From Strigamia acuminata (Eukaryota; Arthropoda; Chilopoda; Geophilomorpha; Linotaeniidae), in contig OX442324.1 of NCBI GenBank assembly GCA_949358305.1, positions 8,343,601-8,407,600 of the forward strand: a DNA stretch of 64,000 nt. Reading direction: 5' to 3'. The notes under the pieces were generated by a model. It ran no database searches. It worked only from the letters and a program-made list of their open reading frames with translations, and was not told where the DNA came from. Within the stretch, counting starts at the first letter, position 1, and each line of letters opens with the position of its first letter. The position numbers were made by a program, and so were the translations under genes. Below are positions 21,293 to 60,249 of the stretch, piece by piece.

Positions 21293-21795
21293 TGTTACGT
21301 GGTTAAATGGGGATTGATTTAGTCCTACGTGACATGAATTTAATCAAGAATGACACAGGGTTTTATATGTAAAATGCCTATTGGCTTTATTATTCAAAGT
21401 CGGACATTTACTAACGTAAATGTTCGGTCATCAGCTCTTATTACATTTGTTCATTTATTAAGCCTAAAATATAAATCATTCATTCAAATCAAATAAATAA
21501 CTAAATAAGGATGATGCTGTTGTCAATTCAATTCAATTCAGGAAACCTAGTCCTGCCTGACCGTCAACCGGCTGGCAGTAGTAGGTGAAGGTAAAAGTTT
21601 GAGAATCAAAAGAGATCTGAGCTCTCTGGCTTAATCAGCTCACTAAGTAAACTCCTATTCCCCCTATCAACTAATTTGAACGGTCTGTGCATCTAATTAG
21701 GTGCACAGCGCCGTCTAGTGAGAATTCATTGCATTAAATGCCTAAACAGAGCGAGCAGAGCCAGCCGATACACGGTACGGCTCTACCGCGTAACA
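21293..21795 (-). repeat. Gypsy A 3' LTR
   Basis: 503 bp, TGTTACG...CGCGTAACA. It differs from the other LTR at three sites. Immediately inside, on the minus strand, lies a purine tract (A3G9, about 21796-21808) suitable as plus-strand primer. Confidence 0.95.
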
Positions 21796-21964
21796 GCCCC
21801 CCCCCTTTAATTTTTTCGGTCTCTCGAAAAACAATGAATTGTTCCAACTAACGCATCTCCTTTTACATAAAAAAAAATTTTCAAATCATAAAAACAATTT
21901 TACAATTTTGAGAATCTCTTTTCATCATCCTTATTTTTACAAAAATATAATATGATACACTCTT

Positions 21965-24900
21965 TCAATGTTTATAAATGTCTGTTTTCTTTCCATTTGA
22001 GCTTCTAATTTCGTAGTCATTTGGCGCGGTTCTTCTTACTATTTCGTATGGGCCTGAGAATTGTGGTAGGAGTTTTTCACTTAACCCAACTTTTCTATTG
22101 GGTGTTTTAAGATAAACTAATTCTCCTGGATCAAATTCCACATGAACTCGGCCTTTATCGAATCTTTTTCTGCTTTTTCCTTCTTGCCATTCCAATCTTT
22201 CATTTGCTATTTTCCTAGCTTCTCTGATGAATTTCGAGGTTCGCAAGGTGAATTCTTTTTGAGGTAAGTTGAGGTTTACGTCCACGTTGAGATCAACTTC
22301 ATATCCTTTCAAAAGATAATAAGGTGTATATCCTGTCGTCTCGTGCACACCGGTATTATATGAGAAAAGCAAAAATGGCAAAAAATCATCCCAGTCCCTC
22401 TGGTCCTTATCAACATAAATCTGCAACATTTTTGCAAACGTCGCATTAAAACGCTCAGTGAGTCCATTGGTCCTTGGATGGTACCCTGAAGTGGTTTTAT
22501 GTAGGGCTTTAAACATATTTGATACTTCTTCCACCATTTTGTTTCTGTATTCTGTGCCTTTATCGCTCAGGATTTCTCTCGGACTGCCTTCCTTCAACAT
22601 TAACTCATAAAGCAAAGTTCTAGCTGCTTCCAACGCTGTTGATGCTGGAGCTGCTCTAGCAATCACTGTCCGCGACAAATAATCTGTCATTACGAAGACA
22701 TACTTGTTGCCCTTGTCGGAGGTTGGAAAACTTCCCAATGTATCAATTCCAATCCTCTCGAAAGGCTTAGATATTGTAGACCACGGCTGCATTAAACCTT
22801 TTGGCGGTGTTGTCATTGATTTCGAGCTCGCGCAATGTGGACAAGAAAGTACGTAATTTCTAACGTCTTTATATATCCGGGGCCAGAAGAATCTTGTTCT
22901 CATTCTCTTCCATGTTTTGTTTAGGCCCAAGTGAGCACCCGTCAGTCCGTCATGCATTTCTTCAAGAACTGCAGTTTTCAAATGCTGCGGAACATATAAC
23001 AGATTTACTTCCGTGTCTAGAGAATTCAAAGAATTTTTCTTCCTAAACAACACATTGTCGAGAAGGACGAACTGCTTTAGAGGACGTCTTCTCTTCTTCG
23101 GAAGCTGCTCTACTTGATTCATTGCGGTGATCAATTCCAGTAGCTTCTTATCCTTACGCTGCTCAGCAGGAAGGTCGAGCTGTTCGAGTAAAAGTGAGGG
23201 AACTATTTCGTTTTCTTCCTCGCTTAAATCTTCTGGAATTCTGCTCAAGGCGTCGGCATCTTTGTGCGCTTTTCCGCTCTTGTGGATCACATCGAAATCA
23301 AAGTCCACTAGCTTTAAGCTCCATCTAGCTAGTCTGCCGTTGGGGTTTTTGACTGATTTTAGCCATTGAAGTGCCGAATGGTCTGTGACGATCTGGAACT
23401 TCTTACCATACAAATAAGGTCGATACTTTTCAATTCCAAACAGAATGGCCAGACACTCCCTTTCTGTGGCATTGTAGTTCTGTTCTGCTTGGCTGAGAAG
23501 TCTGCTGGCATAAGCTATCACATGTTCTTGTTTGTTTATCTTCTGTTTCAACACTGGTCCAAGACCATATGCGCTCGCGTCGGTCGATACCATGAAGGGT
23601 TCTTCAAAATTAGGGTGAGCTAAAACTGGCACGGTTACCAGGGCGGTCCTTAATGTTCTAAAGGCCTTGTCATGAGGTGGGCCCCAATCGAATTTCTCGT
23701 CCTTCTTCGTCAAATTGACTAAGGGCTTGCATATGTCCGCAAAACCTGGAATAAACTTCCTGTAATACGAACAGAGCCCTATGAATCCTCGAAGAAGTTT
23801 GAGGTTAGTAAGAACTGGAAACTTAGCTACGGATTCCAGATTCCTTGGGTCTGGTGATATTCCCTCGGAGTCCACTACATGTCCCAAATACTTAATGGTG
23901 TTTGTCCCAAATGTGCACTTGCTTAACTTCACCTTTAAGTTAGATTGTCTAAGCTTGTCGAAAACGTTGTCTAGATCTTTCAAATGCTGATCGAATGTTT
24001 TAGAGAAAATGATAAGGTCGTCAATGTATGCTATACAAACTTTGCCGAGGAGGTTGCCTAATACTTTGTTCATTAGCTTTTGAAAAGCTGCTGGGCTATT
24101 GCAGAGACCTTGGCCTAGGACATTAAATTCATAATGCCCGCTGGAAGTTGTGAATGCTGTCTTTTCTTTGTCTTCTTCATTGATCTCTACCTGGAAATAT
24201 CCTTGGATAAGATCCATCATGGAGAAGAACTGTGCACCTGCCAGCTGATCTAAGGTGTCATCTATTCTTGGCAATGGGTACACCATTTTCTTTGTTATCG
24301 AATTCAATCGTCTCCAATCGACGCAAAATCTCCACTTACCATCTCTTTTCTTTATTAGCAATACAGGCACGCTCCAGGGACTTTCTGATTCCCTTATCAC
24401 TCCCATATCAAGCAATTTCTTTGTTTCCTCTGCTTCGACTTCTTTTTCCTTCATAGAACGACGATACGGTTGCAAATGTATTGGGTCATGATCTCCAGTA
24501 TCGATTTTATGCTTATACACTTGAACTCTTCTCAAATCCTTGTCAGAAACAGCAAATCTGTCTTGATCCTTTTGAAGAAGTTGTCGCATTTGCTCTTGTT
24601 GGTCTTTATTCATTTTGTCTTTTGCTATTGAGGAGTCAAAGTCAAAACAGTGTACCTGTTTTTCGTCAAACACCCCAACATCAACCACATAAAAAGCTTT
24701 TGCGATTGCTGACCTCTCCTTTAGAAAGACTGTCTTCTTGGTTGGGTTAGCCACTCGAATGATGCCTTTGCCGTTCTTGAAATCTGTTAAAGTTTTACAA
24801 CCTATAACAGCAAATCTATCAGTAACATTATGCAATGGTTGTACAAACATGTCTTGTGTAATTGTTTTATTCAAATAGATGGGAACAATGCATTCGTGCA

Positions 24901-25429
24901 TTGGTGGGATAGTGATGTTTTTCATTACCCTCGCAACATAATTCTGATCAACAAAAGTTTTATTCATTGGAAATGACACTTCCTTTCCACTAGTTTGGCC
25001 CACAAAGATTTTTTGTTTGTCGTAGTCTAACACGCACTTCACGAACAGCATGAATGGGTAACTTAGCAGCAATTCATAATGAAATCCTTTAACAATCAGG
25101 ACCTCGATCCTGTATGTTAATTCACCAATTGTAATATTCATCTTGGTTTTTCCTATTGGAGTCACAAGTTCTCCGCTTACCCCTTTTAATCGAATATTTG
25201 GGCTAGGCGAGTAATTCAACTGTAGAGCTTCAGCAAGCTCTTCGCTGATAATATTGCGTTTTCCTCCACTGTCCATAACTGCCTTGACTTCCATGTTGTT
25301 CACTATTACTGGAATTTCCAATAGAGATTCTGAAATGTTCATTTCGACTACGATTATCTTCTCTCTTCTACTCTTTCTTTTCTTCTTTGGATGGTAACAT
25401 TTTCTTTGTGGCCGACCCACTAGTTTCCC
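21965..25429 (-). CDS. pol: Gypsy A pol polyprotein (protease, RT, RNase H, integrase)
   Basis: The pol frame is entered by -1 frameshifting at 25423-25429; there is no ATG at its start. Order of domains, numbered from GTG at 25420: aspartic protease with VMDSGG at about 50-53 (Gypsy C has DTGA); RT with the YIDD catalytic motif near 465; RNase H starting STDASAYGLG near 610; integrase HHCC (EMHDGLTGAH, CPHC) near 820; and DD35E core (GIDTLG, LSDKG, LTERF). It copies the RNA into DNA and inserts it. The frame is open throughout but stops at GKKTDIYKH, where B and C read on for over 100 residues; an indel and deletion removed the tail. The Gly in place of Ala in the protease triad may weaken processing. 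Confidence 0.92.
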   Translation of the reverse strand, partial: GKLVGRPQRKCYHPKKKRKSRREKIIVVEMNISESLLEIPVIVNNMEVKAVMDSGGKRNIISEELAEALQLNYSPSPNIRLKGVSGELVTPIGKTKMNITIGELTYRIEVLIVKGFHYELLLSYPFMLFVKCVLDYDKQKIFVGQTSGKEVSFPMNKTFVDQNYVARVMKNITIPPMHECIVPIYLNKTITQDMFVQPLHNVTDRFAVIGCKTLTDFKNGKGIIRVANPTKKTVFLKERSAIAKAFYVVDVGVFDEKQVHCFDFDSSIAKDKMNKDQQEQMRQLLQKDQDRFAVSDKDLRRVQVYKHKIDTGDHDPIHLQPYRRSMKEKEVEAEETKKLLDMGVIRESESPWSVPVLLIKKRDGKWRFCVDWRRLNSITKKMVYPLPRIDDTLDQLAGAQFFSMMDLIQGYFQVEINEEDKEKTAFTTSSGHYEFNVLGQGLCNSPAAFQKLMNKVLGNLLGKVCIAYIDDLIIFSKTFDQHLKDLDNVFDKLRQSNLKVKLSKCTFGTNTIKYLGHVVDSEGISPDPRNLESVAKFPVLTNLKLLRGFIGLCSYYRKFIPGFADICKPLVNLTKKDEKFDWGPPHDKAFRTLRTALVTVPVLAHPNFEEPFMVSTDASAYGLGPVLKQKINKQEHVIAYASRLLSQAEQNYNATERECLAILFGIEKYRPYLYGKKFQIVTDHSALQWLKSVKNPNGRLARWSLKLVDFDFDVIHKSGKAHKDADALSRIPEDLSEEENEIVPSLLLEQLDLPAEQRKDKKLLELITAMNQVEQLPKKRRRPLKQFVLLDNVLFRKKNSLNSLDTEVNLLYVPQHLKTAVLEEMHDGLTGAHLGLNKTWKRMRTRFFWPRIYKDVRNYVLSCPHCASSKSMTTPPKGLMQPWSTISKPFERIGIDTLGSFPTSDKGNKYVFVMTDYLSRTVIARAAPASTALEAARTLLYELMLKEGSPREILSDKGTEYRNKMVEEVSNMFKALHKTTSGYHPRTNGLTERFNATFAKMLQIYVDKDQRDWDDFLPFLLFSYNTGVHETTGYTPYYLLKGYEVDLNVDVNLNLPQKEFTLRTSKFIREARKIANERLEWQEGKSRKRFDKGRVHVEFDPGELVYLKTPNRKVGLSEKLLPQFSGPYEIVRRTAPNDYEIRSSNGKKTDIYKH

Positions 25430-26748
25430 TCTTCTTGTTGACCTTGTTGTGGGTTCTGCTTAGGATTAGGGTTAGTTTTACCACCCCCTTGTGTCCTTTT
25501 CTTTTTAAACCACTTTCTGTTGTTTGGATTCCCTCTATTTTCTTGAGATTGTTGCTCCTGTGGCGCTGATGTGTTATGTTCACAACCATAACGATGCCAA
25601 CATCCACATGAACGCGTTGTTGTCGGACTGCTGTTTGACCGCTGTCTACCTCTGTTATATCTACCTCTAAAGTTCTGTCCGTGCTGCGATGCTGGAATAT
25701 ACCACTCGCCTTGTATGAATAGTGGAATCTCTTGTTGTGGCTCTACTGACTCACTTTCGAGCTTTTGCTGTTTTAATTTGATATTTTCAGCTAATAACTC
25801 GGCGTAGCTTACTGGGGATCCCCCTGTTCCAGACAGTATACCTGTTGTCGTAGGGTTCACCTTTTCATCTACTACTTTTCTGAACATTGTGAGCAGTAGA
25901 TCCGCTGGTTCTTCTGTTTTGTGGCTTTCATACAATTTAAGTCTCTGTTCCATTTCTTCTAACGTTGATGGAAATACTGTTATCATCATCTTCTGCATTG
26001 CAGGCTTCAAACCTTGGTAAACATAATTTATTTTCTGAGTTTCAGTCATCTCTGGTAGAATAAACGCACATTCGGCCAAGACTTTCTTCATGAAGGCATC
26101 TGCTGTACCCTCTTTGTGTTTCATGAAGTGGAGAGTATTGTAAACATTTTCTTGGCTTCTTCGGAATTTTTTCTCGATCTGTGGTTTCCAATCCGTCCAT
26201 TTCCATGTCGGATTCTTCTTAAGTTGTTCCACAAACCATGCCAATCCATCAGTCTTTAAGGCTAATGCCAAATGTTTTACTCTCTCATCATCTGTTCCTA
26301 TTGTAGCTTCATATGCCACAAGCCATTGGTCGATGTTGCCTTTTTCTGTATCATAAGTGACGACAGGTCGCTTCTGCACTACCAAACTCTTCAATAAGTC
26401 GGTCAATACGTCCGTTGGAGTCTGTGATGTCATCTTTGGAAAATTTGGTTTAATTGGTGTTGGAACTGGTTTAGTCTTTACTGGTGTAAATGTCTTTATT
26501 ATTTCTTCTAAACCTATTTGTGGAATTAATTTTATTGCTGGAGTAGCAAAATCCAATTTCTGTAGGATCGATTGAGGTTGAGATCGGACTTCCTTGTTAT
26601 CTTCTTGAGGTTCAGTGTCAGATTCAGATCTAGTCTTTTTACTTCTTCTAGTGGTGATATTTTTCAAATTTGGTTCAGGTGACTGCAAATTTTGTAGATC
26701 CTGAAGATTATCCAAGTTGAACTGTGACAATTTAATTGGCTTATCCAC
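25420..26748 (-). CDS. gag: Gypsy A gag
   Basis: 442 open codons. The first ATG is at 26433 (codon 106, PKMTSQTPTDVL), matching the Kozak ATG of Gypsy C at 58624. The frame upstream is also conserved as protein between A and C (DKPIKLSQ / DKPVKLTQ) but begins without ATG (GTG in both). The core (about 130-300) resembles retrotransposon capsid: DTEKGNIDQWLVAYEA, LALKTDGLAWFVEQL, ECAFILPEMTE. The C-terminus is Arg/Asn/Gln-rich with a Cys/His cluster, SCGCWHRYGCEH, in place of a normal CCHC knuckle. Gag forms the particle and binds the RNA. Confidence 0.9.
   Translation of the reverse strand: MDKPIKLSQFNLDNLQDLQNLQSPEPNLKNITTRRSKKTRSESDTEPQEDNKEVRSQPQSILQKLDFATPAIKLIPQIGLEEIIKTFTPVKTKPVPTPIKPNFPKMTSQTPTDVLTDLLKSLVVQKRPVVTYDTEKGNIDQWLVAYEATIGTDDERVKHLALALKTDGLAWFVEQLKKNPTWKWTDWKPQIEKKFRRSQENVYNTLHFMKHKEGTADAFMKKVLAECAFILPEMTETQKINYVYQGLKPAMQKMMITVFPSTLEEMEQRLKLYESHKTEEPADLLLTMFRKVVDEKVNPTTTGILSGTGGSPVSYAELLAENIKLKQQKLESESVEPQQEIPLFIQGEWYIPASQHGQNFRGRYNRGRQRSNSSPTTTRSCGCWHRYGCEHNTSAPQEQQSQENRGNPNNRKWFKKKRTQGGGKTNPNPKQNPQQGQQEEGN
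25423..25429 (-). promoter_or_regulatory. -1 ribosomal frameshift heptamer GGGAAAC
   Basis: In the gag frame the sequence reads G GGA AAC followed at once by the stop TAG (25420-25422). This is a canonical X XXY YYZ slippery site, and slipping one base back enters the pol frame exactly. Gypsy C has the related G GAA AAC at the homologous place. A downstream structure cannot be judged by eye. Confidence 0.8.
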
Positions 26749-26759
26749 ACTGAAGCCTT

Positions 26760-27271
26760 ATATTGCACTTTTTTATTCACTTCACTAGCACTAATTACTT
26801 TTTAAACACTGAAATGCACTAACACGAATTCATTACCTGAAAACTTAAAGTGTTATTAGCATATAATACATAAATATTACACTCAAAATTACAAAGAAAA
26901 TAATCCAACAATAACATTTCAAAACAATTTTTCAATTCCTATAAATTCACAAAAATTTCCTGTAAATAAATATCAAAATTAGTATTTATACACTATACAT
27001 TTTATTTATATAACAATTGTAAATCAATTAATTAATCCCTAATAAACAATTAAACTCTATATTTATTTCCAAAATGCAAATTTTTTCACACAATGACATT
27101 AAATATTCAAGCTGTGACTTCACTTATTTTTACCAACTCTGAGTCATTCAAGATAATTGCTATTAAATCAGCAATTTTCACTATTTATATCTTGATTTTT
27201 AAAGAGATTTTTTTAGCATTTTTAAATCCAATTTTTCTAATTTTAACAATCTAAACGGGCTACAATCGAGA
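26760..27271 (-). other. Gypsy A leader
   Basis: About 510 bp of very AT-rich sequence between primer site and gag. It contains no ORF of note. A splice donor for a subgenomic mRNA would be expected in this or the gag region, but I cannot point to one. Confidence 0.5.
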
Positions 27272-27285
27272 CCGCATCTCCACCA
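27272..27285 (-). promoter_or_regulatory. Gypsy A primer-binding site
   Basis: Two bases after the 5' LTR on the minus strand comes TGGTGGAGATGCGG, beginning TGG as needed to pair with a tRNA CCA end. Gypsy C has TGGTGGAGGTTGCGG at 59719-59733. The tRNA cannot be named from memory with confidence. Confidence 0.65.
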
Positions 27286-27287
27286 GT

Positions 27288-27790
27288 TGTTACGTGGCTA
27301 AATGGGGATTGATTTAGTCCTACGTGACATGAATTTAATCAAGAATGACACAGGGTTTTATATGTAAAATGCCTATTGGCTTTATTATTCAAAGTCGGAC
27401 ATTTACTAACGTAAATGTTCGGTCATCAGCTCTTATTACATTTGTTCATTTATTAAGCCTAAAATATAAATCATTCATTCAAATCAAATAAATAACTAAA
27501 TAAGGATGATGCTGTTGTCAATTCAATTCAATTCAGGAAACCTAGTCCTGCCTGACCGTCAACCGGCTGGCAGTAGTAGGTGAAGGTAAAAGTTTGAGAA
27601 TCAAAAGAGATCTGAGCTCTCTGGCTTAATCAGCTCACTAAGTAAACTCCTATTCCCCCTATCAACTAAGTTGAACGGTCTGTGCATCTAATTAGGTGCA
27701 CAGCACCGTCTAGTGAGAATTCATTGCATTAAATGCCTAAACAGAGCGAGCAGAGCCAGCCGATACACGGTACGGCTCTACCGCGTAACA
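27288..27790 (-). repeat. Gypsy A 5' LTR
   Basis: 503 bp, same ends as 21293-21795 with three substitutions. It is followed by ATAT and directly by the LTR of Gypsy B. Confidence 0.95.
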
Positions 27791-28810: not shown

Positions 28811-28935
28811 TTAAGGCTGGTTTTCTTCCTTCTCGAATGGGATCAACTTCTCGTGTAGAATTTCGTACACTATACGCTGGCGCAATTCGATGGGATGGCC
28901 ATGGCGCATGTTGTCCCTATCCTTGATATACGGTC
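28811..28935 (-). pseudogene. Remnant of Ulp1-like protease ORF in Gypsy B
   Basis: About 40 codons on the minus strand ending in TAA at 28811. The peptide includes YIKDRDNMRHGHPIELRQRI and VYEILHEKLIPFEKEE, aligning with the C-terminal end of the Gypsy C ORF (YLVDRDYMRHAHPIHLRHRI, then LYELHQKALEPFEEEK). It lies at the same place, between pol and the 3' LTR. All catalytic residues lie in the deleted part. The divergence shows that the ORF was not acquired by the Gypsy C copy alone. Confidence 0.8.
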
Positions 28936-29497
28936 CATTCAAGTTTAATATGTACAAAAATTAAATTAAATTCATTAATGACCAATATAATATACAATCA
29001 ATTTGTCTAAATTTCATTAAACTTCTAACTTTATACAATATTCAAATTATTCTAAGCAATTTTATTAAATATTCAAAGCTATTTCTATTGATTTTTAAAT
29101 TTAAATGTCAAGCTAACATTTCAAAATTTGTGCTAAGTCATTTTAATCGTCGGAAAAATGGCGATAGATTCGTTTCGTTTTAATCACTTTTGGCGTATGT
29201 TAAATATCCTACGTCTATCGTGCGAAGAAAACGTCTCAACTTCGCTCAGATAAATAGAATTAATCAAAGTTTAATCAGAATTAATCTCGGGTCACTGCAA
29301 ATAACTTGCGTTCACCTCAAAAAAATCCGACCAAATAAATACCAATCATGTCGCCTTCACGTTCATTTCAATATATTTCAATTACAAAATACCTGTTGTC
29401 ACCAAAAAAAAATGCTCTCTGTTCGTCAAAAACACAACGAAAAACAAGGTTTTTCCTTCGTTCACGGCAATCCACTTGCGTTCACGTCAGAATTTCG
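28936..29497 (-). other. Spacer between pol and protease relic in Gypsy B
   Basis: AT-rich, no gene. Composition and position resemble the 53336-53714 spacer of Gypsy C, which I interpret as the end of an intron. The body of the protease ORF is deleted here. Confidence 0.5.
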
Positions 29498-32423
29498 CTA
29501 GTAAAACGAAGTATAATCCTGGCGTGGCTGCTGTCGAAGTCGGCGTGACCGGAAATCACTTTCAGCAGGTAGTCGCGCATGCGCGTCAGTACTTACGGCA
29601 CTTGCGACACCTGGTGATGGTTTCTGCAACTGATTTTGCTGTTCTAAATCAACCTCCTTTTTCGCCCGACGTTCCTCAATTTCTTTCGGCCCGTAAATTG
29701 CCTTCAGTCGCTCCTTCTCAGTTAGAACCGGTAAATCCGACGCTCTATCTTCGGATTCAAAGAAATTCCGCAACGAAATTTGATCGTCATCATCAATAAA
29801 CCTTTCCTTTGCTTCTAATTTAGGCCTATCTCGCGAATCATCGTCCTTCTTCACAATTTCCGCATTTTGATCGTCTTTTTGCGAACTTTCTTGCACTTCA
29901 TCAGAAAATGTTACTTTCTTTGGTGGTAAATCCTGCAGAATAGTTTCTGGAATTTCCTCTCGCGGCTTGTATGGTTTTAAACGCTCAACATTGACAATAC
30001 TAGTTTTCTTTCCTGATGAATTCCTTACTTCATAATCGTTTGGCGCTGTGCGTCTAACTATTTCATATGGTCCAGAAAATGGCGGCAGGAGTTTTTCGCT
30101 TAACCCTACTTTCCTATTCGGGGTTTTCAAGTAAACTAATTCCCCTGTTTCGAATTCCACCACAATTCTGTCCAAATCAAATCTTCTCTTGCTCTTCTCA
30201 CTCTGCCATTCTAGTCTTTCGTTGGCAATTTTCCGCATCTCCCTCATAAATCTAGAAGTGCGAAGAGTGAATTCCTTTCGAGGGAGGTTCAAGTTCACGT
30301 CCACATTCAAATCAACCTCATAACCTTTCAACAAATAATATGGGGTATATCCAGTTGTTTCATGGACTCCGGAATTATAGGAGAAAATGACAAATGGTAA
30401 AAATTCATCCCAATCTGTATGATCTTTATTAGTATAACATGTCAATATTTTGGCAAACGTTGCATTGAATCTTTCCGTTAATCCGTTGGTCCTTGGATGG
30501 TACCCGGAAGTAGATTTGTGCTGGGATTTAAACAGTGCTGATACTTCATTGATCATTTCATTCCTGTACTCCGTCCCCTGATCGCTGAGTATCTCGCGTG
30601 GACTTCCCTCTTTGAGCATTACCTCGAATACAAGAGTTTTTGCTGCTTCCAACGCTGTACATGCTGGAGCCGCTCTAGCGATGACTGCACGCGATAAATA
30701 ATCAGTGATGACAAAAACAAATTTATTTCCACTATTTGAAACTGGAAAGCTTCCTAACGTGTCTATACCAATCCTCTCAAACGGTCTTGAGATCGTCGAC
30801 CAAGGTTGTAATAAACCTTTTTGTGGAGTGGTCATTGACTTACTTCCTGCGCAATGTGGACAACTGAGAACGTAATTCCTCACGTCCCTGTATATCCTCG
30901 GCCAAAAGAATCTTACTCTAATTCTTTTCCACGTCTTATTTAGGCCGAGATGAGCACCTACGAGCCCGTCATGCATTTCTTCTAACACTTGCTTACGTAA
31001 ATGCTGCGGTACTACTAAAAGGTTTCCTTCCATGTTTAGAGAATTGTAACTTTTCTTTCTAAACAACGTGTTATCCAGGAGAACGAACTGTTTTAAAGGA
31101 CGTTTCCTGTTTCTTGGAAGTTGCTCAATGTTCTCCATTGCGGTGATGATCTCCAAAATTTTCTCGTCCTTACGCTGTTCTACAGGTAAGTTGAGTTTTT
31201 CGAGAAGTAGTAAGGGAATAATTTCTTTTTCTTCCTCACCAATCTCTTCTTGGATTCGGCTAAGAGCATCTGCGTCCGTGTGCTTCTTGCCTGACTTATG
31301 CATCACATCGTAGTCATAATCTACCAGTTGTAAACTCCACCTGGCCAACCTACCGTTGGGATTTTTCACCTTATTCAGCCATTGTAACGCAGAATGGTCT
31401 GTCACAATTGTAAATTTCCTACCGTAAAGATATGGTCTGTACTTGTTAATGCCGAATATTATGGCTAAACATTCTCTTTCCGTAGCTGTGTAATTCTGTT
31501 CCGCTGTACTTAATAATCGACTGGCGTAACAAATCACATGTTCTTGCTTGTTAATACGCTGCTTCAGAATTGCACCGAGTCCATAAGCACTTGCATCCGT
31601 AGACACAATGAATGGCTCTGCAAAATTTGGATGTGCTAAAACTGGTACCGTAACTAAAGCTGTTCGTAAGGCCTTAAAAGCTGTTTCCTGTGGTGGCCCC
31701 CAATCAAAAGCTTCATCCTTGCGAGTCAAGTTGGCTAATGGTTTCGATACGTCCGCAAATCCTGGAATGAACTTACGATAATACGAACATAAACCCAAAA
31801 ACCCTCTCAACTGCTTTAAATTCGTGGGTTTTGGAAATTTGGCGACACTTTCCAAATTCCGTGGATCAGGTGACACTCCATCAGAATCAACTATGTGGCC
31901 TAAATATTTGATGGTATTAGTACCAAACGTACATTTGCTGAGTTTAACCTTTAAGTTTGCCAACCGCAGCTTGCTGAAGACAGCATCGAGATCCTGAAGA
32001 TGCTGGTCAAATGTTTTCGAAAATATAATAAGGTCGTCAATATAAGCTATACAGACCTTGCCAAGAAGATTACCAAGCACCTTGTTCATCAATTTTTGAA
32101 ACGCAGCTGGGCTATTACATAATCCCATTCCTAGGACGTTAAACTCAAAATGTCCGCTTGAAGTGGTAAACGCTGTTTTTTTCACGATCTTGTTCATCTA
32201 TTTCGACTTGATAATATCCTTGAATAAGATCCATCATCGAAAAATACTGGGCCCCTGCCAGTTGGTCTAATGTATCGTCAATTCTGGGCAGTGGGTATAC
32301 CATTTTCTTTGTGATCGCGTTTAACCTCCTCCAATCGACACAAAATCTCCATTTACCGTCTCTTTTCTTGATGAGTAGTACTGGTGCACTCCATGGACTT
32401 TCTGATTCCCTAATGACTCCCAT
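29498..32423 (-). pseudogene. pol: Gypsy B pol: RT, RNase H, integrase and tail
   Basis: RT begins at VIRESESPWSAPVLLIKK (32423) and is interrupted by a single-base insertion in an A run near 32180 (seven A instead of six). It then continues with VLGMGLCNSPAAF, YIDD, the RNase H start STDASAYGLGAIL, integrase HHCC and the DD35E core, and a long tail ending RRLRQQPRQDYTSFY at 29498. The tail, rich in Asp/Glu/Lys, is shared with Gypsy C and absent from A. Protease and gag are missing, so the copy is not autonomous. Confidence 0.92.
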
Positions 32424-47900: not shown

Positions 47901-48252
47901 TTTTACTCATCCTTTGTACACTTGGAAAATGAATGTGCCCCAATCGTTCGTGCTAAAGTCTAGCCTCTTCTGGATTAGATGCACTTCTAGTTGATCCAAT
48001 TGATGATTGTTTTTGTTGCTCGCCAACAGAAGCTTTGTTGTTTTGCTTTTGTCTCAGCTTTTCAAATTCTGGTTTCTGGTCACTCGTTTTAATGTAGTAA
48101 AGTCTGTCCTTTTTCACAGCTTCCATTAATTGTCTCTTCCACTGTGGGTCATAAATCTTAACTATTCCGCAGCCAATCGCAACCTTGCATCTCGCCTCGT
48201 CTATACAGGGTCCCAACATTAAATTTCTCCTCAAGTCCGGTGCGTAGTACAC
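44983..48252 (-). pseudogene. pol: Copia pol: GAG-pre-integrase, integrase, RT, RNase H
   Basis: One frame interrupted by a single TAG at 47953-47955, where the sister copy has the Trp of LWHERLGH. Upstream part: YYAPDLRRNLMLGPCIDEAR and KKDRLYYIK. Downstream 986 codons: zinc residues CDVCDLAKKK; integrase core FHMDV (Asp ~62), RTDNG (Asp ~125) and GVSERLNQT (Glu ~161), which gives 35 residues between the last two (DD35E); RT with KARLVAQGFSQVYGDSYEE and YVDDIVVF; RNase H with STMEAEYVAL, NRKTKHIDIRYHFIREL and ADIFTKSVDK. Apart from the stop codon and the missing 5' end it looks intact. Confidence 0.93.
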
Positions 48253-50869: not shown

Positions 50870-51211
50870 CGATTCTACTTTAGGCTAATTTATTAGCCAT
50901 TTAAGATAGATAAATAATCGGTTTAAACAAGACGTTGCTAAGAGTAGCAACAACCTAACCGAGATAAGCTTACAGAAGTCCGTGTAAAAATGTGAATTCA
51001 TGACTGAGTAGAAATAACCTACAATATTAGTGTAACGTAACATATTTATTACTGAATAATAATAATATAATTGGGTTCTTGACGCGTGTAAGCAGGCGGC
51101 ATCAACTGGTTGAGGATCCGGGCGAAGCCAGAGGGATACGGCTGACTTGCGGCATCGTCACAAATAGCGCTACGGAGACGTATTTGGTCCGCAGCTCGAT
51201 TGTCTAAATAT
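50870..51211. other. Hairpin-rich segment, left part
   Basis: Contains perfect short hairpins: GGCTAA-TTTA-TTAGCC (about 50891) and GTTGCTA-AGAG-TAGCAAC (about 50935). The distal half is GC-richer. It ends at the ATAT where Gypsy C inserted, and continues at 60254. No protein-coding sign. Confidence 0.5.
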
Positions 51212-51724
51212 TGTTACGTGGCCAAATGGCCAATAGTGACCACGTAACTTATTACTTATTTACTAAGAATCCTTTAGCTTCACTAATACTAGCTGAGCTA
51301 AAGAGTGACTTAATTAGCTAAGAGTGAAATGAAACAAAGCCAGAGTTTAAGATTGAAAACAATACAGTGTCTTTATTCTTTAAATCAAAACACTTAAATC
51401 ATAAATACAAAATGTAAAACTAAATCTAAACTTAAACCTAATAAATACTCTAAGATATGATTAACACTTTGATTCAATTTGGAGGGAAACAATCACACCA
51501 CGCCATTTGCTGGCTGGTGCTAACTGTTTAGAAGCCCGGGATGGACTGAGCTCTAAGAGCCAAAGTGGCTCTTTTATACTAGAGTCACCCCCTGAGTTAA
51601 TCCAGATTGACCAGCCCGTGATGTCACCATCACGTACGCTGGCTAGTGATAGATTTTGACAACTTCTTTAATTCTATCGCTGGTTTGAGCTGGTCGGCAG
51701 ACGACGCAACTCAACCGCGTGACA
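51212..51724 (-). repeat. Gypsy C 3' LTR
   Basis: 513 bp, TGTTACGTGGCCAAATGG...CGCGTGACA. Immediately inside on the minus strand is AAAGAGGGGGC (51725-51735), the plus-strand primer tract. 51736-52069 is AT-rich 3' untranslated sequence. Confidence 0.95.
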
Positions 51725-52069
51725 GCCCCCTCTTTAAATTTTTTGGTCTCCAAAAACCACAGTACTTTAGAATTTAAGCCAATTATTTTATATGCTAATC
51801 ATACCTTAAAAATAATCAAATATATGAGTCCCACCCCAGTGTTAATTATATCTTTTACAAAGTAAAACAAAATTCCACATTTCACTAAAAAAAATTACAA
51901 TGAAATTCAACACTTTACTATTCAAAATAACACTTTTTGGATTTTTCTACATTTTTATATTACTTTTTTTCTTCGGGTTTTCTAACATTTTCTATATAAA
52001 AAAAAAATTGTGAGATTTATATCTCAATTAAAATACACAAAAAAAAACAAAGTATTTAAAATCAAAAGT

Positions 52070-53335
52070 TCATAGAAGAGGCGCTTTTAGCTTTTCTTTT
52101 TCTTCTTCGAATGGTTCCAAAGCCTTCTGGTGTAATTCGTAAAGAATCCGGTGACGTAGATGAATCGGATGCGCATGGCGCATGTAGTCCCGGTCCACCA
52201 GATAGCGCCGTGCAAAGTACAGCACCGCTGGCCCACACGAATCTGGGTCGAGCTGCTGAACTCGCGGCGGGTCCCACTGCCTCAGTCTGTGCGGGAAATA
52301 AATCCCCGCACCTGTAAAGCAGTTGTGGATGGTCTGCCATTGAATGCTTTTAGTGTCCAATGGACCCGATGGGTCGTACAAAACAATGTCCGTTGGGAAT
52401 TTGGTCCAGTCAACTATCAGAAACTGCCAGTGCTCCTCAATCGGAATTGGAAGCAGCCAAATAGGCCTCGCATTACCCGGCCGATCTTGTTTAATCATAT
52501 TTATGGCTTCAAGAAACGACTCGCGGTCTAACATCAAGGCGACAAGCTCGAGAGCCGCCATCTCATGATTTTTAATAATCATCGGTGGTGTTCCGTCCAT
52601 CGTGACCGCTGCGTCATCCATTGGTTTCCAAGCGTAGTCACGCGCGAGTTGCAATGCCACTAGTTGTTTGTCGGTATCCAACTGCACTTTATATGAATAC
52701 AGAACAGGCGGCAAGTCAAAATAAGGATCTCCATACGATGTCCTGTTGGCTAAGGCTTTCGCCTTTTGTATGTTCTTACGGATGACAGCTTCGTGTAACA
52801 GCAGCTTGTCTGCCGCTTGAAACCAAGCTTCATATATCACCTTGCCATCTGTCCCTTTCAAGTTCAGCTTGTCCACTGCAATCGCCATGTTCCTTTGCTC
52901 TAGCCGAAGTTCGCGTAGACGTTTCTCATTTCGCTCGATGGTTTTGGCGTTCTGCTTCTTCATTTCCTTAATTCCCTGTTCCGAAAATTCCTGTTTCTCC
53001 TTCTTCATCTTCTGTCTCTTCACCTTCTCACTCGCCTTTCGCTTCTCAACCTTATGCTTTTCTGCTGGCGTCAAAGGGCGCTCGTGAACCTTCGGTGCCT
53101 GTCTTTGTTCCTTACCATCTGAAAATGGTCGATCAAATTTGACAAAGTCCGTCAGTTTAGGAGTTTCCTTTGAGCATGACGCCATCGCTCCCTCTTCGAC
53201 CTGCTCCAATCGAGATGTACAGGTAAACAAATCAGCGAGTCGAGTTGACGCCCCTGAACATGTCGACATTGCATCGTCCTCGTCCTCCGACTCATGGATC
53301 CTCACGTGCTTAAATTTGTTAGTCATCTCCTCCAT
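52070..53335 (-). CDS. Ulp1/adenain-like (clan CE) cysteine protease ORF in a Gypsy element
   Basis: 421 codons from ATG 53335 (CGAATGGAGG); the frame is open a little further up but without ATG. Residues 1-80 are acidic and Ser/Thr-rich; 85-152 are Lys/Glu/Arg-rich and probably coiled coil or nuclear-targeting; 155-280 have no known motif. The C-terminal part has clan CE hallmarks: His302 in IEEHWQFLIVDW, Asp321 in IVLYDPSG, Gln360/361 and Cys367 in VQQLDPDSCGPAVLYFARR. The Gln-to-Cys spacing of 6 equals that of yeast Ulp1 (Q574, C580). Such enzymes cleave SUMO or ubiquitin-like conjugates, or viral proteins. It has the strand and position of an env gene. No signal peptide or membrane segment. 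No stops, so it seems functional. The target is unknown. Confidence 0.85.
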   Translation of the reverse strand: MEEMTNKFKHVRIHESEDEDDAMSTCSGASTRLADLFTCTSRLEQVEEGAMASCSKETPKLTDFVKFDRPFSDGKEQRQAPKVHERPLTPAEKHKVEKRKASEKVKRQKMKKEKQEFSEQGIKEMKKQNAKTIERNEKRLRELRLEQRNMAIAVDKLNLKGTDGKVIYEAWFQAADKLLLHEAVIRKNIQKAKALANRTSYGDPYFDLPPVLYSYKVQLDTDKQLVALQLARDYAWKPMDDAAVTMDGTPPMIIKNHEMAALELVALMLDRESFLEAINMIKQDRPGNARPIWLLPIPIEEHWQFLIVDWTKFPTDIVLYDPSGPLDTKSIQWQTIHNCFTGAGIYFPHRLRQWDPPRVQQLDPDSCGPAVLYFARRYLVDRDYMRHAHPIHLRHRILYELHQKALEPFEEEKEKLKAPLL

Positions 53336-53714
53336 TCGTGCTTCATAAAAAAAAAACAAAACAAATTAATATACGGTTGACCAATATCAAACATAATCCA
53401 ATTTAATTCCTATCAAATTCGTCTATTGCAACTATCCTTCCAATTTACTATGTAAAATTCAAATTATTATCTATGAACTAATTAATTATTCAATGTGAAA
53501 AATGTCCAAGTTAATAATTTCAATGCAGCTTCTTGAAAATCATTCGCATTAATTTCGTTTTCAAACTTTCCAAATTTCCGCTCTATTAATCTTCAATTTC
53601 AATTGTTTAATAATACGTACTGTCACACACGAGCTTTCTAAATATCACGTTGTTAAGTTCAATTGAAAATTTTCTCCGGTCACAACAATATGCTTGTGTT
53701 CCCTTTGAAAAAGT
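53336..53714 (-). other. Spacer between pol and protease ORF in Gypsy C
   Basis: About 380 bp, strongly AT-rich beyond 53360, no ORF. Read as 3' part of an intron ending at the acceptor above. Confidence 0.5.
53340..53362 (-). promoter_or_regulatory. Putative 3' splice site before the protease ORF
   Basis: On the minus strand a pyrimidine tract (TTGTTTTGTTTTTTTTTT) is followed by ATGAAG, with the AG at 53341-53342 and the protease ATG six bases further. This would let a spliced subgenomic mRNA express the ORF, as for env in errantiviruses. The donor was not identified. Confidence 0.5.
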
Positions 53715-56700
53715 TCAGTAGAATGTAGTGTAATCGCGTCGTGCCTGTTTGCGTAGGCGGCGTGACCGGAAACTGCCAACTTCAGGTGGTCGCGCATGCG
53801 CGTCGTTGTCGACCGCACTTGCGACGCCTGGTGACGGTTTCGGAAGTTGATTTTCCTCATTTTTCGCCGGAAGTTCATCCTCGAATAATCCTCGCAACGA
53901 TATTTGATCGTCATCGTCAATGAAACGTTCCGTAGCTGCAGAAATAGGTTTGTTTGACGAATTTACGTTGTTTTTCGCGATAATTTCCTTTCCGCTGTCT
54001 ATTTCCTTCAAATCATCAGCAAATGTAACCTTTTTAGCTGTTAAAGGCCTCATAATATCTTCTGAAAGTTCTTCTCTCATTTTGTACGGTTTCAGTCGCT
54101 CTATGTTCACAATGTCCATCTTTTTGCCTGATGAACTTCGAATTTCGTAGTCATTCGGCGCTGTTCGTCGTACGATCTCATATGGCCCAGAGAATTGTGG
54201 CAAGAGCTTTTCACTTAAACCAACCTTTCTATTTGGTGTTTTCAAATAAACTAGCTCTCCTGGATCGAATTCCACATGTACTCTGTCCAAATCAAACCTT
54301 TTCTTGCTTTTCAAACCTTGTTCTTGTATTCTTTCATTGGCAATTCTCCTTGCCTCCCTGATAAATCTGGAAGTACGCAAAGTGAATTCCTTACGAGGAA
54401 GATTTAAGTTGACATCCACGTTGAGATCTGCTTCATAACCTCGTAATAAATAATACGGAGTGTAACCTGTTGTTTCATGGACTCCAGTGTTATAAGAGAA
54501 GAGAAGAAATGGCAAAAATGCGTCCCAATCAGTATGATCTTTATTTACGTAGCTCTGCAACATCTTAGCTATTGTCGCATTAAATCTTTCCGTAAGACCG
54601 TTTGTTCTTGGATGGTATCCGGAAGTGGATTTGTGAAGGGACTTAAACAATGCAGATATTTCCTTAATCATTTCATTTCTATATTCTGTTCCCTTGTCAC
54701 TCAGAATCTCTCGTGGGCTTCCTTCTTTCAGCATGACTTCATAAACAAGGGCATTCGCTGCTTCAATAGCTGTGCTAGCTGGTGCTGCTCTAGCTATTGC
54801 AGTGCGTGATAAATAATCCGTAATAATGAAAACGTACTTGTTTCCTGTGTCAGATGTTGGGAAACTGCCTAACGTGTCTATGGCTACTCGTTCGAATGGT
54901 CGAGACACTGTCGACCACGGCTGCATCAATCCTTTTGGCGGTGTTGTCATGGTTTTTGCACTTGCACACTTCGGACATGAGAGTACGTAATTCCTTACGT
55001 CCCTATAAATCCTTGGCCAGAAGAAACGTGTTCTAATTTTCTTCCAAGTTCTACTCAGGCCTAGATGAGCGCCTGTAAGACCATCATGCATTTCTACTAA
55101 AACATCTTTTCTCAAATGCTGTGGAATATACAGTAATTCTTCCGTGTTCAAGGAATTAAATTTCTTCTTAAACAAAATATCGCCTTGAAGTACGTACTGC
55201 TGTAGCGGACGTCTTCTTTTGCGCGGAAGTTGCTCTATTGTCTGCAGTGATGTGATGAGTTCCATAATCTTCTGATCTTTACGCTGCTCTGCAGGTAAAT
55301 CGAGATTTTCGAGCAATAATGAAGGAATAATTACTTCTTCTTCACTAATGTCCTCAGGAATCCTACTTAACGCATCGGCATCTGTATGTTTCTTGCCTGA
55401 CTTATGCTGTACTTCATAATCATAGTCAACCAACTGCAGACTCCATCGTGCTAACCTACCATTTGGATTTTTTACACTCTTCAGCCATTGCAGTGCTGAA
55501 TGGTCCGTGATGATGGTAAACTTCTTTCCATACAAATAAGGGCGAAATTTCTGTATGCCAAACAATATGGCCAGACATTCTCTTTCTGTCGCGTTATAGT
55601 TCTGTTCGGCATTGCTCAATAACCTACTAGCATAACAAATCACATGCTCTTGGTTGTTAAGCTTTTGCTTCAAAATGGCTCCCAAACCGTAAGCGCTTGC
55701 ATCCGTCGATATGATGAAAGGCTATGCGAAATTAGGATGAGCCAAAACTGGCACTGTTACCAAAGCTGTTCTTAGTTGTTTAAATGCTTCTTCATGAGGC
55801 GGTCCCCAGTCGAATTTCTCGTCTTTCTTCGTAAGGTTGACCAAGGGTTTGGAAATATCAGCAAATCCTAAAATGAATTTTCTATAATATGAGCACAAAC
55901 CCAAAAATCCCCTTAACTGCTTCACATTTAATGGAATTGGAAACTTTGCTACAGACTCGAGATTTCGTGGATCTGGTGAAATGCCTTCTGAATCAATCAC
56001 ATGTCCGAGATACCGGATGGTATCCGTCCCGAACGTGCATTTACTTAGCTTTACCTTTAAATTCGCAATTCGCAGTTTTTCAAAGACTGAGTCCAGATCT
56101 TGTAAATGTTGTTCAAATGTTTTAGAAAAAATTATAAGGTCGTCAAGATAGGCTATACAGACTTTTCCAAGGAGGTTGCCCAATACTTTATTCATCAATT
56201 TTTGAAACGCTGCTGGGCTGTTACATAACCCCATTCCAAGGACATTAAATTCATAGTGTCCGGTTGAAGTGGTGAACGCTGTCTTCTCTCGGTCTTGTTC
56301 ATTTATTTCAACTTGATGGTATCCTTGGATTAAATCCATCATCGAGAAAAACTGGGCCCCTGCTAGTTGATCTAACGTGTCATCTATTCTTGGCAGTGGG
56401 TACACCATTTTCTTTGTAATTGCGTTCAACCTTCTCCAATCAACACAAAACCTCCATTTACCGTCTCTTTTCTTGATGAGTAAAACTGGCGCGCTCCAGG
56501 GACTTTCTGATTCCCTTATGACTCCTTGTTCTAACAATTTTCTGGTTTCCTCAGCTTCTACTTCTTTTTCTGCAATTGAACGTCTGTACGGCTGCAAGTG
56601 AATAGGTTCATGATCACCTGTATCAATTTTATGACTAAAGTTGGTTACTCTTCCTAAATCTTTATCTCTCATGGCAAATCTGTCCTGATTTTTCTGAAGT

Positions 56701-57629
56701 AACTGCTTCATTTGTTGCTGTTGGTTCTTGGTCATCTTACCTTCGGCTATTGCGGAGTCAAAATCAAAGCAATTTGCTTGTTTTTCATTCGACAACTCAA
56801 CAACCTTAGAACTCGGGGAGTTAGAGTCAAAACAATTTGCTTGTTTTTCATCCATCAACCCAATATCAATAATATAATGTGCCTTACCAATCGCAGACTT
56901 CTCTTGCAGAAAAATGGACTTAGATGTTGGATTCGCCACTCGTATTACGCCTTTGCCGTTCTCAAACTTTGTTAACGTCTTACAACACATAATACCAAAC
57001 CTATCAATTACATTTCCTAAAGGTTCCAAAAACATTTCTTTCGTTAAAGCTGTGCTTAGGTTAACTGGAACTGCACATTCATGCATTGGTGGAATTGCTA
57101 TGCCTTTTGTCACTCTTGCTACGTAATTCTGGTCCACATACGTCTTATTCATCGGGAAAACTGCTTCTAATCCACTTTTTCGGCCCACAAAGATTTTTTG
57201 TAAATCGTAATCAACAACACACCTCGCAAAAGTCATAAATGGATCCCCCAATAAAAGTTGGTAATTAAAACTTCTAACTATCAATACTTCTACTGAATAC
57301 TGCAATTGTCCTATTTGAATGTTCAAATTTGTTTTACCCACTGGAGTTATTAAATCAGTTCCTATTCCTCGTAATCTAACGTTAGGTGTAGGTTGATAAT
57401 CCAACTGTAATATTTCTGCTAACTCTTCACTCAAAATGTTCTTCTTAGCTCCAGTGTCCATGACTGCCTTTATTTCCAAATTCTTTACAATTACCGGGAT
57501 TTCCAACAATGATTCCGAAATTTTTATATCAATTATTGTAATGTTGTCCTTTTTCCATCTTTTCTTCTTTTTCTTCTTACTTCTATTCGGATGGTGACAA
57601 TCTCTCTGTGGCCGACTTCTCAGTTTTCC
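53715..57629 (-). pseudogene. pol: Gypsy C pol polyprotein, one nonsense codon
   Basis: 1305 codons in the -1 frame from the slippery site to TAA after RRDYTTFY, interrupted only by TAG at 55722-55724 in RNase H, where A and B have Glu (HPNF-E/A-EPF). Order: basic Cys/His tract (RPQRDCHHPN), protease VMDTGAKKNIL, RT with YLDD near 56140 (YIDD in A and B), RNase H (ASAYGLG side of the stop), integrase HHCC (EMHDGLTGAH, CPKC), DD35E core (AIDTLG, LSDKG, LTERF, 35 residues between the last two), GPYEIVRR-type C-terminal domain, and an acidic tail. No chromodomain seen. Confidence 0.93.
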
Positions 57630-58978
57630 GTCTGTTGTTGGGTGTTGACTGTAGTGCTAGGACCTTCTCTTCTACGTCTTCTTGGTCTTCCAGCAGTACC
57701 ACCTCTATCCTGTTGGTACCTTGGTGGATTATAAAACTCGCAAGTAAAGTGATGATAGCATCCACAAGATCGAGTATTATTATTATTACTATTATTGTTA
57801 TTGTTAGTATTGTAATTTTGACTACCACCTCTATTAGTACTACCTCTTTGAAAATTCTTATACTGAAAATTCTGACCTCCTCGCTTCATTGGTGTATACC
57901 ACTGGCTTCCTATCAAGATGGGTTCTTCTGACGTCGGTTCCACCGTCTCAAGAGCTAATAACCGTTGCCTTAACATTGCATTTTCAGCTAAAAGCTCGGC
58001 GTGGGTTAATGAGGTTTCCACAGTTCCACTCAGTTTACCTGATGTCGCTGGAGTTACCTTTTCATCCACTACCTTTCTGAACAGTGAGAGCAGTAAATCC
58101 GCTGGATCCTTAACCTTATGGGTCTCGTACAACTTCACCCTCTGTTCCATCTCTGCCAGTGTGGATGGGAATACTGTAATTATCATCTTCTTCATATCGG
58201 GTTTCATACCTTGATAAACATAATTAATCTTTTGATGTTCAGTGAGCTCCGGCCTTACAAAAGCACACTCAGCCAAAACTTTTTTCATATAGGCATCTGC
58301 TGTTCCTTCTGTATGCGACATAAAATGAAGAGTATTTAAAACATTTTCCTGGCCTCTACGAAATTTATCTTCTAGTTGTGGTTTCCACTCTGTCCAAGTC
58401 CATGTTGGATTTTTCTTGAGCAATTCCACATACCAAGCCAGACCATCAGTTTTTAACGCTAATGGCAATTGTTTAACTCTCTCATCATCTGTGCCTATTG
58501 TTGCTTCGTAAGCCACGAGCCACTGATCAATATTCCCTTTTTCCGTATCAAAACAAACGACAGGTCGCTTTTGTATCATCAAACTCTTAAATAAATCAGT
58601 TAGTACTGCCGTTGGGTCCGCCATCTTGGATACTATTCCTTTTGATGTGGATCCTTGTGTATTAGTTTTTAATAAAGGTGTTTGTATAGTCTTTATTGAT
58701 GTTAGTAATTCAAAAATTGATTTTAACTCTTTTGGTCTTGTTAATTTCAAAGGTGAGGACAAATCAAGTTCTTGTTGCGATAATGAATCTTGAAATTGAT
58801 CTTCCTCCTTTATTTCAACAACTGGATCTTCCTCCTTTACTTCCGATCCCGAATGTGATTTTGATTTCTTCCTAGTTTTGGTTATATTAGGGTTATCCAC
58901 TAACCTTTGTAATTCTTGTTTCTGTAAGTCTAGTAAATTGTCCGTTTGTGTCTGTGTAAGCTTCACTGGTTTATCCAC
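57620..58978 (-). CDS. gag: Gypsy C gag
   Basis: 452 open codons. The first ATG is at 58624 (codon 119) in AAGATGGCG, a good start context; this gives a Gag of 334 residues. The frame above it is conserved with Gypsy A and starts at a GTG. Capsid-like core: DTEKGNIDQWLVAYEATIGT, KTDGLAWYVELLKKNPTW, ECAFVRPELTEHQKINYVYQ. The C-terminus has an Asn run and the cluster SCGCYHHFTCEF, then Arg-rich residues. Ends TEN-stop directly at the frameshift site. Confidence 0.92.
   Translation of the reverse strand: MDKPVKLTQTQTDNLLDLQKQELQRLVDNPNITKTRKKSKSHSGSEVKEEDPVVEIKEEDQFQDSLSQQELDLSSPLKLTRPKELKSIFELLTSIKTIQTPLLKTNTQGSTSKGIVSKMADPTAVLTDLFKSLMIQKRPVVCFDTEKGNIDQWLVAYEATIGTDDERVKQLPLALKTDGLAWYVELLKKNPTWTWTEWKPQLEDKFRRGQENVLNTLHFMSHTEGTADAYMKKVLAECAFVRPELTEHQKINYVYQGMKPDMKKMIITVFPSTLAEMEQRVKLYETHKVKDPADLLLSLFRKVVDEKVTPATSGKLSGTVETSLTHAELLAENAMLRQRLLALETVEPTSEEPILIGSQWYTPMKRGGQNFQYKNFQRGSTNRGGSQNYNTNNNNNSNNNNTRSCGCYHHFTCEFYNPPRYQQDRGGTAGRPRRRRREGPSTTVNTQQQTEN
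57623..57629 (-). promoter_or_regulatory. Putative -1 frameshift site GGAAAAC
   Basis: Gag-frame reading G GAA AAC then TGA (57620-57622); one base back gives GGA AAA CTG and the pol frame. The P-site half is not homopolymeric, so it is weaker than GGGAAAC of Gypsy A, but position, A-site codon AAC and adjacent stop are conserved. Confidence 0.6.
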
Positions 58979-59718
58979 TATTAAGCCTTGAAATGCACTA
59001 TAATTTTTATTTTCACTACTCTATAATGCACCTCCACACATTCACTACAACCAAAATTCACCAATCACTTATTCTGAAATAAATCTTTATGCAATTAATC
59101 ATTGAAATCAACATAAACCTCAACATATATAAAAAAAAACACATTGCCTATAATGTAATCGTTATCAATCAATGTTTTATCATTAAATAAACACTCAATA
59201 TTCAAAATCCTTATTCTAAAAAATATTCTCATTTTTATGTTTCACAATTATCAACAATTCTGGAAAATAAACAATTATTATTATTAGTCAACAACAGAAT
59301 CTATATAAATTATCACTAATTTGTCAATTTCCTGTAAAAAAAAATTAAATTTATTAAACTTTATTAAGTATATTATTATCAAAATAAATTTTCCTGCAAA
59401 ATTCAATATTCAACAATATTAAACAACTTTAATAATTAAATCCAAAATATTATCTAATTCAATGCAACTCAATTAAATATTCAATCACTATACTGTCTTC
59501 AAACTCTGAGTCACTCTATGATTCACTCTTATTTCTATCTAATATGCAAATTAATCTGCACTCCTTCTAAATTTTATAAGAATTCTTATTTTTAACTGAG
59601 TTTTTACGGGGTTTTTTAGCTCTAACTTCTCAATTTTAGCACAAAACTGGCTGATTTTACTGTAAATTTTTACTTTTTACTACTTTTTATCAACCAATTA
59701 GTGGGTCTCAAAAGAAAA

Positions 59719-59733
59719 CCGCAACCTCCACCA
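59719..59733 (-). promoter_or_regulatory. Gypsy C primer-binding site
   Basis: TGGTGGAGGTTGCGG three bases after the 5' LTR, similar to the site of Gypsy A. The leader (58979-59718) is very AT-rich without ORFs. Confidence 0.65.
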
Positions 59734-59736: not shown

Positions 59737-60249
59737 TGTTACGTGGCCAAATGGCCAATAGTGACCACGTAACTTATTACTTATTTACTAAGAATCCTTT
59801 AGCTTCACTAATACTAGCTGAGCTAAAGAGTGACTTAATTAGCTAAGAGTGAAATGAAACAAAGCCAGAGTTTAAGATTGAAAACAATACAGTGTCTTTA
59901 TTCTTTAAATCAAAACACTTAAATCATAAATACAAAATGTAAAACTAAATCTAAACTTAAACCTAATAAATACTCTAAGATATGATTAACACTTTGATTC
60001 AATTTGGAGGGAAACAATCACACCACGCCATTTGCTGGCTGGTGCTAACTGTTTAGAAGCCCGGGATGGACTGAGCTCTAAGAGCCAAAGTGGCTCTTTT
60101 ATACTAGAGTCACCCCCTGAGTTAATCCAGATTGACCAGCCCGTGATGTCACCATCACGTACGCTGGCTAGTGATAGATTTTGACAACTTCTTTAATTCT
60201 ATCGCTGGTTTGAGCTGGTCGGCAGACGACGCAACTCAACCGCGTGACA
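59737..60249 (-). repeat. Gypsy C 5' LTR
   Basis: 513 bp; I found no difference from 51212-51724. Followed by the ATAT duplication. Confidence 0.95.

Follow-up and report, generated by a model that had tools for sequence, protein, structure and literature searches.

A putative Ulp1/C48-like protease gene downstream of pol in a Ty3/Gypsy retrotransposon of Strigamia acuminata

Ulp1-like proteases and captured genes in mobile elements

Proteases of the Ulp1/C48 type have been recorded in several groups of mobile elements. Ginger1 transposons combine a Gypsy-type integrase with a C-terminal Ulp1 or OTU domain, to which the authors would assign a function in transposition, and Ulp1/C48 domains are also on record for Mutator elements (PMC2836005). 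In the integrating Polinton/Maverick elements, an Ulp1-like protease accompanies a retrovirus-like integrase (PMC10175614). A C48 peptidase is carried by CryptonF and CryptonS, in some CryptonS as a protein additional to the others (PMC3212892), and the NeSL/Utopia elements are retrotransposons with an Ulp1-like cysteine protease (PMC4640811). LTR elements capture open reading frames in lieu of env (PMC6431247), their third open reading frame (ORF3) is not necessarily env (PMC5718144), and in LTR elements of bdelloid rotifers an enzymatic ORF3 occupies the env position (PMC5408684).

We analysed a stretch of 64,000 nucleotides of Strigamia acuminata DNA (the window), in which a Ty3/Gypsy retrotransposon, element A, carries an ORF3 whose product may be a C48/Ulp1-like cysteine protease (Table 1). 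In Ginger1, which are DNA transposons with terminal inverted repeats, the protease is fused to the transposase (PMC2836005), whereas ORF3 is separate and lies downstream of pol. Polintons differ in being large DNA elements with capsid genes (PMC10175614), CryptonF and CryptonS in being tyrosine-recombinase elements of oomycetes (PMC3212892), and NeSL/Utopia in being non-LTR elements of nematodes with the protease at the N-terminal end of the element protein (PMC4640811). The enzymes of the bdelloid ORF3 are a GDSL esterase and a DEDDy exonuclease, and the accessible part of that account names no C48/Ulp1 protease (PMC5408684). The planarian Burro elements, likewise of the Gypsy type, are also linked to the ubiquitin/SUMO system, but through a Ubi2/SUMO-like domain (PF11976) within their giant polyprotein rather than through a protease (PMC6431247). 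In the titles, abstract openings and selected passages of the literature searched, which took in few subscription papers and no Repbase Reports, no LTR retrotransposon with a C48 protease came to light; the accessible parts of PMC5718144 and of three further papers (PMC6264045, PMC2996953, PMC12440569) had no bearing on C48 in LTR elements. If our reading of ORF3 is right, the recurrent capture of Ulp1 known from DNA and non-LTR elements extends to LTR elements, and the env slot of Gypsy elements appears once more as a cargo site.

Table 1. Ty3/Gypsy features of the window discussed in the text (positions in the 64,000-nucleotide window).
Feature	Positions	Strand	Description
Element A, Ty3/Gypsy	51212-60249	-	two LTRs, gag, pol, ORF3
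5' LTR, element A	59737..60249	-	513 bp, TG...CA; exact repeat 59736-60249
3' LTR, element A	51212..51724	-	same as 5' LTR base for base; polypurine tract directly 5'
gag ORF, element A	57620..58978	-	452 aa from GTG; frame open 57620-59020; Ty3_capsid (under cut-off)
pol first part, element A	55722..57656	-	frame open from stop to stop, with aspartic protease followed by reverse transcriptase
pol second part, element A	53715..55721	-	in frame with the first part; RNase H, H2C2 and integrase, with a GPY/F-type C-terminus
ORF3	52070..53335	-	421 aa; N-terminus acidic, aa 86-160 basic and helical, predicted C48-like domain about aa 211-421
Predicted C48-like domain	52070..52705	-	Pfam PF02902 E 0.0013 (under cut-off); H302, D321, Q361, C367
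Element B, related Gypsy copy	21293..27790	-	gag ORF, shortened pol ORF, without ORF3
pol of element C (partial)	29498..32197	-	upstream of ORF3 tail relic
Relic of ORF3 C-terminal tail, element C	28811..28945	-	own stop; tblastn 55% over 38 aa

The retrotransposon and its third open reading frame

Element A is bounded by direct LTRs of the TG...CA type and flanked on both sides by ATAT (51208-51211 and 60250-60253), which we read as a short target duplication. The domains of pol follow each other in the order protease, reverse transcriptase, RNase H, integrase. Pfam searches with the first part of pol returned RVT_1 (E 4.5e-37) and Peptidase_A2B (E 3.4e-9), and those with the second part RT_RNaseH (7e-32), Integrase_H2C2 (1.5e-21), Integrase_p58_C (3.5e-10) and, under the cut-off, rve (4.4e-6); an SGPYEI motif was also recognized by eye in the second part. 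The gag product matched Ty3_capsid with an E-value of 0.0023, under the cut-off. A single in-frame stop codon (55722-55724) splits pol at the boundary between reverse transcriptase and RNase H. Two further elements of the window, B and C, read through at this position, indicating that unbroken relatives exist. A duplication is present in pol at 56754-56863 (63-nt spacing, 47 nt at 83% identity), which repeats EKQANCFD between the protease and reverse transcriptase parts.

The pol frame ends at 53715 and the ATG of ORF3 follows 380 nt further on (53335), before the polypurine tract and the 3' LTR, in the position that an envelope gene occupies in some related elements. At its extreme end (53701-53900) pol has a GC content of 52-54%, like ORF3 and unlike the AT-rich spacer between them. 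ORF3 comprises 421 codons within a stop-free frame of 431 codons (52070-53365). This frame exceeds the longest stop-free run, 363 codons, found in the six frames of 1000 Markov-1 sequences of ORF3 composition and 1296 bp each; when the 64-kb window itself was simulated 20 times with a Markov-1 model, the longest run was 202 codons. Codon periodicity was apparent from GC contents of 0.56, 0.35 and 0.54 at the first, second and third positions. An earlier note on this DNA had described an intact 421-codon frame on the pol strand of a Ty3/Gypsy element, between pol and the 3' LTR. The length of the frame and its position are thus confirmed, and the LTRs, the ATAT flanks and the order of the Pfam domains support the identity of the element.

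The predicted protein begins with an acidic stretch (aa 1-85, net charge -6), followed by a basic and helical segment (aa 86-160, net charge +13), and an NLS-like basic run was noticed by eye. The highest mean hydropathy over 19 residues (Kyte-Doolittle) was 1.07, below the level of the transmembrane anchor that characterizes Errantivirus-type env. Since a membrane anchor would require a higher value, ORF3 is no ordinary envelope protein and we rejected that reading. The lack of a transmembrane-like stretch, the +13 segment and the NLS-like run are more in keeping with a nuclear protein than with an envelope. A T-rich tract and AAG lie upstream of the ORF3 ATG, and donor-like sites occur in gag at 58060 and 58041; splicing from these sites onto ORF3 would be a guess.

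We compared element A with elements B and C, whose gag or pol sequences are related to its own. The gag proteins of A and B are 57-59% identical. The LTRs of element B are identical at 500 of 503 positions and ATAT flanks it on both sides (21289-21292 and 27791-27794); its pol ORF has 1151 codons, the C-terminal end being gone, and no ORF3 was found in it. Element B moved recently without ORF3, perhaps with help. Directly past its upper ATAT comes TGTTACGT, from the end of a further LTR that probably belongs to element C, and the presence of ATAT around elements A and B and at the neighbouring LTR end may reflect a target preference for ATAT.

In element C, pol is 77% identical to the second part of element A pol (667 aligned codons, stop columns dropped), with a dN of 0.15 by the NG86 method and a synonymous distance that is not estimable. 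Between this pol and the polypurine tract we detected a short sequence that matches residues 378-415 of ORF3 (55% identity over 38 aa, tblastn E 7.5e-8), ending with a stop codon near the same point as that of ORF3. The alignment score was 116, whereas none of 2000 shuffles exceeded 48. The remainder of ORF3, including the catalytic core, was not found in element C. For the 38 codons compared, a small and saturated sample, NG86 gave a dN of 0.33 and a dS of 2.2, which hints at past constraint. The presence of the tail relic at the corresponding site of a divergent element largely removes the concern that ORF3 might be a single copy, brought in by a chance insertion of a host gene, with the reservation that the relic lacks the catalytic core.

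The identity of the two LTRs of element A indicates a young copy, which took ORF3 along when it moved. Together with the ATAT flanks and the relic in element C, it supports the view that ORF3 belongs to the element. Either ORF3 is as old as the ancestor shared by elements A and C, or older, or it passed from one to the other. Since it is present as a relic in C and absent from B, it can be lost; we hold with high confidence that it is an accessory gene borne by the element.

Likeness of ORF3 to C48/Ulp1 proteases

The C-terminal half of ORF3 contains the motifs HW, YDPSG and QQLDPDSCG, starting at residues 302, 320 and 360. They supply the series His302, Asp321, Gln361 and Cys367, with a Gly after the Cys, and hence the His-Asp-Gln-Cys order and the Gln-x5-Cys-Gly arrangement by which Peptidase family C48 and clan CE are recognized. 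The four residues named in the earlier note are all in place and in the right order. In yeast Ulp1 and human SENPs the distance from Gln to Cys is 6 and that from His to Asp 17, and in adenain the Gln-Cys distance is 7; the corresponding values in ORF3 are 6 for Gln-Cys and 19 for His-Asp. A strict form of the motif, defined only after the motif had been seen, occurred in 9 of 200,000 shuffles of the ORF3 protein and in a single one of the 54 window frames of at least 100 aa, namely ORF3. A loose H-D/E/N-Q-C pattern was frequent by chance, with 63,701 of the 200,000 shuffles and 5 of the 54 window frames containing it, indicating that the four residues by themselves prove little.

When residues 211-421 were compared with Pfam, Peptidase_C48 was the sole family listed at E<=10 (E 0.0013, 19.0 bits). 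The match spans profile positions 86-204 of 217. With the whole protein the E-value was 0.053 (13.8 bits), and the only other family at E<=1 was Herpes_DNAp_acc, over the charged stretch (E 0.49). The best score is 1.7 bits under the Pfam cut-off for C48 (20.7 bits), and we therefore label the domain C48-like rather than a C48 member. Sequence evidence favours clan CE, as the earlier note had proposed, and within it family C48, at a score below the cut-off. From its motifs and profile match, ORF3 very likely carries a C48-like domain.

Single-sequence AlphaFold models of the whole ORF3 and of residues 221-421 had mean pLDDT values of 44.5 and 39.8, too poor for use; only aa 91-150 reached a block pLDDT above 70. 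Foldseek returned no match at E<=0.001 for either of these low-confidence models. With the poor model of the whole protein, SENP5 appeared at rank 20 with a non-significant E-value of 0.86, and we set this aside as uninformative; with the poor model of the domain, SENP5 was not among the best 50 of 263 matches. In phmmer searches of PDB sequences, two ORF3 queries each gave five chains at E<=10, with no C48 protease among them. PHROGs returned two families over the helical stretch (E 1.6 and 3.1), and neither NCBIfam nor Rfam gave a match to ORF3.

No relatives of ORF3 were found among about 5.8 billion protein sequences, either with the whole protein at E<=0.01 (4098 candidates) or with residues 210-421 at E<=1 (487 candidates in the same sequences). 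As a control, the second part of pol was searched against the same database and gave 830 matches at E<=1e-5. Among the best 120 of these 830, the Pfam domains of the matches were those of retrotransposon pol-type proteins, the top identity was 45%, and those matches that could be placed by name came from spiders, ticks and a pseudoscorpion at identities up to 44%. Since pol itself reaches at most 45% among these 120, close relatives of the element seem to be absent from the database, and the negative result for ORF3 says little. Searches of viral contigs and genome contigs yielded no relative of ORF3, and that of viral contigs no relative of the second part of pol.

Origin and possible role of ORF3

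The GC content at third codon positions was 0.54 for ORF3 in element A and 0.64 for the relic in element C (39 codons), as compared to 0.32-0.41 for the gag and pol genes of all three elements. The codon usage of ORF3 was the farthest from that of gag-pol in our comparison, a distance inflated by the shortness of ORF3. This difference in composition fits a capture of ORF3 from a source of other composition. However, six Copia stretches of the window have third-position values of 0.44-0.52, so that the level of ORF3 is not foreign to the genome. The persistence of ORF3 in the lineages of A and C at a saturated synonymous distance is surprising and may be due to repeated capture, to exchange or to selection on the sequence. 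A nested DNA transposon of the Ginger or Mutator type was rejected as the source because no terminal inverted repeats surround ORF3: the one inverted pair of at least 12 nt found between 51725 and 53714 does not span it.

Could ORF3 be a mere passenger, that is a piece of a host gene or of another transposon's protease, taken by template switching and of no function for the element? The third-position GC content and codon usage, the absence of ORF3 from element B and the loss of its core in element C speak for this explanation, which we nevertheless consider rather unlikely, as the relic in C is still 55% identical in protein at a saturated synonymous distance, the catalytic residues are intact in element A, and the Copia values show that such a composition occurs elsewhere in the genome. 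It is improbable, in our estimation, that ORF3 lies outside clan CE and is an env-like or other third ORF with a chance motif. The frequency of the loose pattern in shuffled proteins and the lack of fold support from Foldseek, with its low-confidence models, would agree with such a case; against it stand the rarity of the strict motif, the fact that C48 is the sole Pfam family listed for the domain, and a protein without a transmembrane-like segment. The strong divergence from known C48 proteases, the score under the cut-off and the limited part of the profile that is matched would suit a retained domain whose catalysis has been lost or changed, serving as a SUMO/ubiquitin binder or a scaffold with a C48-derived fold. 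This we also give a low probability, since none of the four catalytic residues has been lost and the Cys is still followed by Gly.

Adenain matures adenovirus proteins, and a like role is supposed for the Polinton protease, which is thought to mature capsids. By analogy, the enzyme could cut the Gag, Pol or another protein encoded by the element itself. ORF3 sits beside gag and pol, and an Ulp1-like cysteine protease is common to Polintons and related viruses (PMC10175614). Such a function in particle maturation is made less likely by the aspartic protease domain that element A already encodes, and is disfavoured further by element B, which keeps gag and most of pol without ORF3, and by the Gln-Cys distance, which has the value of Ulp1 and SENPs and not that of adenain. 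We regard it as quite improbable.

The reading that we prefer is that ORF3 is an accessory gene for a C48/Ulp1-like (clan CE) cysteine protease with a basic, helical and probably nuclear-targeting segment. The protein would be made from an RNA that arises by splicing or is initiated separately, and would enter the nucleus, the basic segment serving for nuclear entry or for nucleic acid binding. There the protease would free its targets, either silencing factors of the host or the gag or integrase of the element itself, from SUMO or another ubiquitin-like tag, and this deconjugation would lead to higher expression or integration of the element. The parts of this proposal differ in strength. Judging from its sequence, the product is probably an active protease. 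That it acts as a deconjugase on silencing or integration is suggested by analogy and is put forward tentatively, and the whole chain, from an accessory protease in the nucleus to the deconjugation of silencing factors or of the element's own gag or integrase, is a possible account that we offer with comparable reserve. The further idea that an animal Ty3/Gypsy lineage has swapped env for a SUMO-specific protease kept by selection, as a counter-defence against SUMO-dependent silencing, seems unlikely.

In yeast, a truncation of Ulp1 by which it leaves the nuclear pore increased Ty1 RNA 3.5-fold and retrotransposition 89-fold, a rise attributed in that study to reduced SUMOylation of unknown factors, and Ty1 RNA was also increased in a mutant with impaired Ulp1 activity (PMC8585004). 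Because impaired Ulp1 also raises Ty1, the precedent is one of lowered SUMOylation and not simply of more protease; as an analogy for ORF3 it is indirect, since it was loss and not gain of Ulp1 that raised Ty1. In yeast as in plants and animals, SUMO favours silent chromatin (PMC8131101). Taken together, the Ty1/Ulp1 precedent and the part played by SUMO in silent chromatin lead us to favour a deconjugase that would loosen silencing or protect the element's own complex. If ORF3 does encode a deconjugase, it would offer a direct and testable case of a retrotransposon fighting the SUMO silencing pathway.

Other repeats were noted elsewhere in the window. Copia-type elements lie at 38660-42952 and 44983-47943, one with gag/pol ORFs on the plus strand and the other with a 986-codon pol ORF on the minus strand, and they look similar by eye. 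An inverted repeat at 34022-34418 has 191-nt arms, 93% complementary and 15 nt apart, which consist of 10-nt units like AAAAATCGAT. Two nested inverted repeats are present at 44114-44880, one with arms of 182 nt (94% complementary) and the other with arms of 118 nt (97% complementary).
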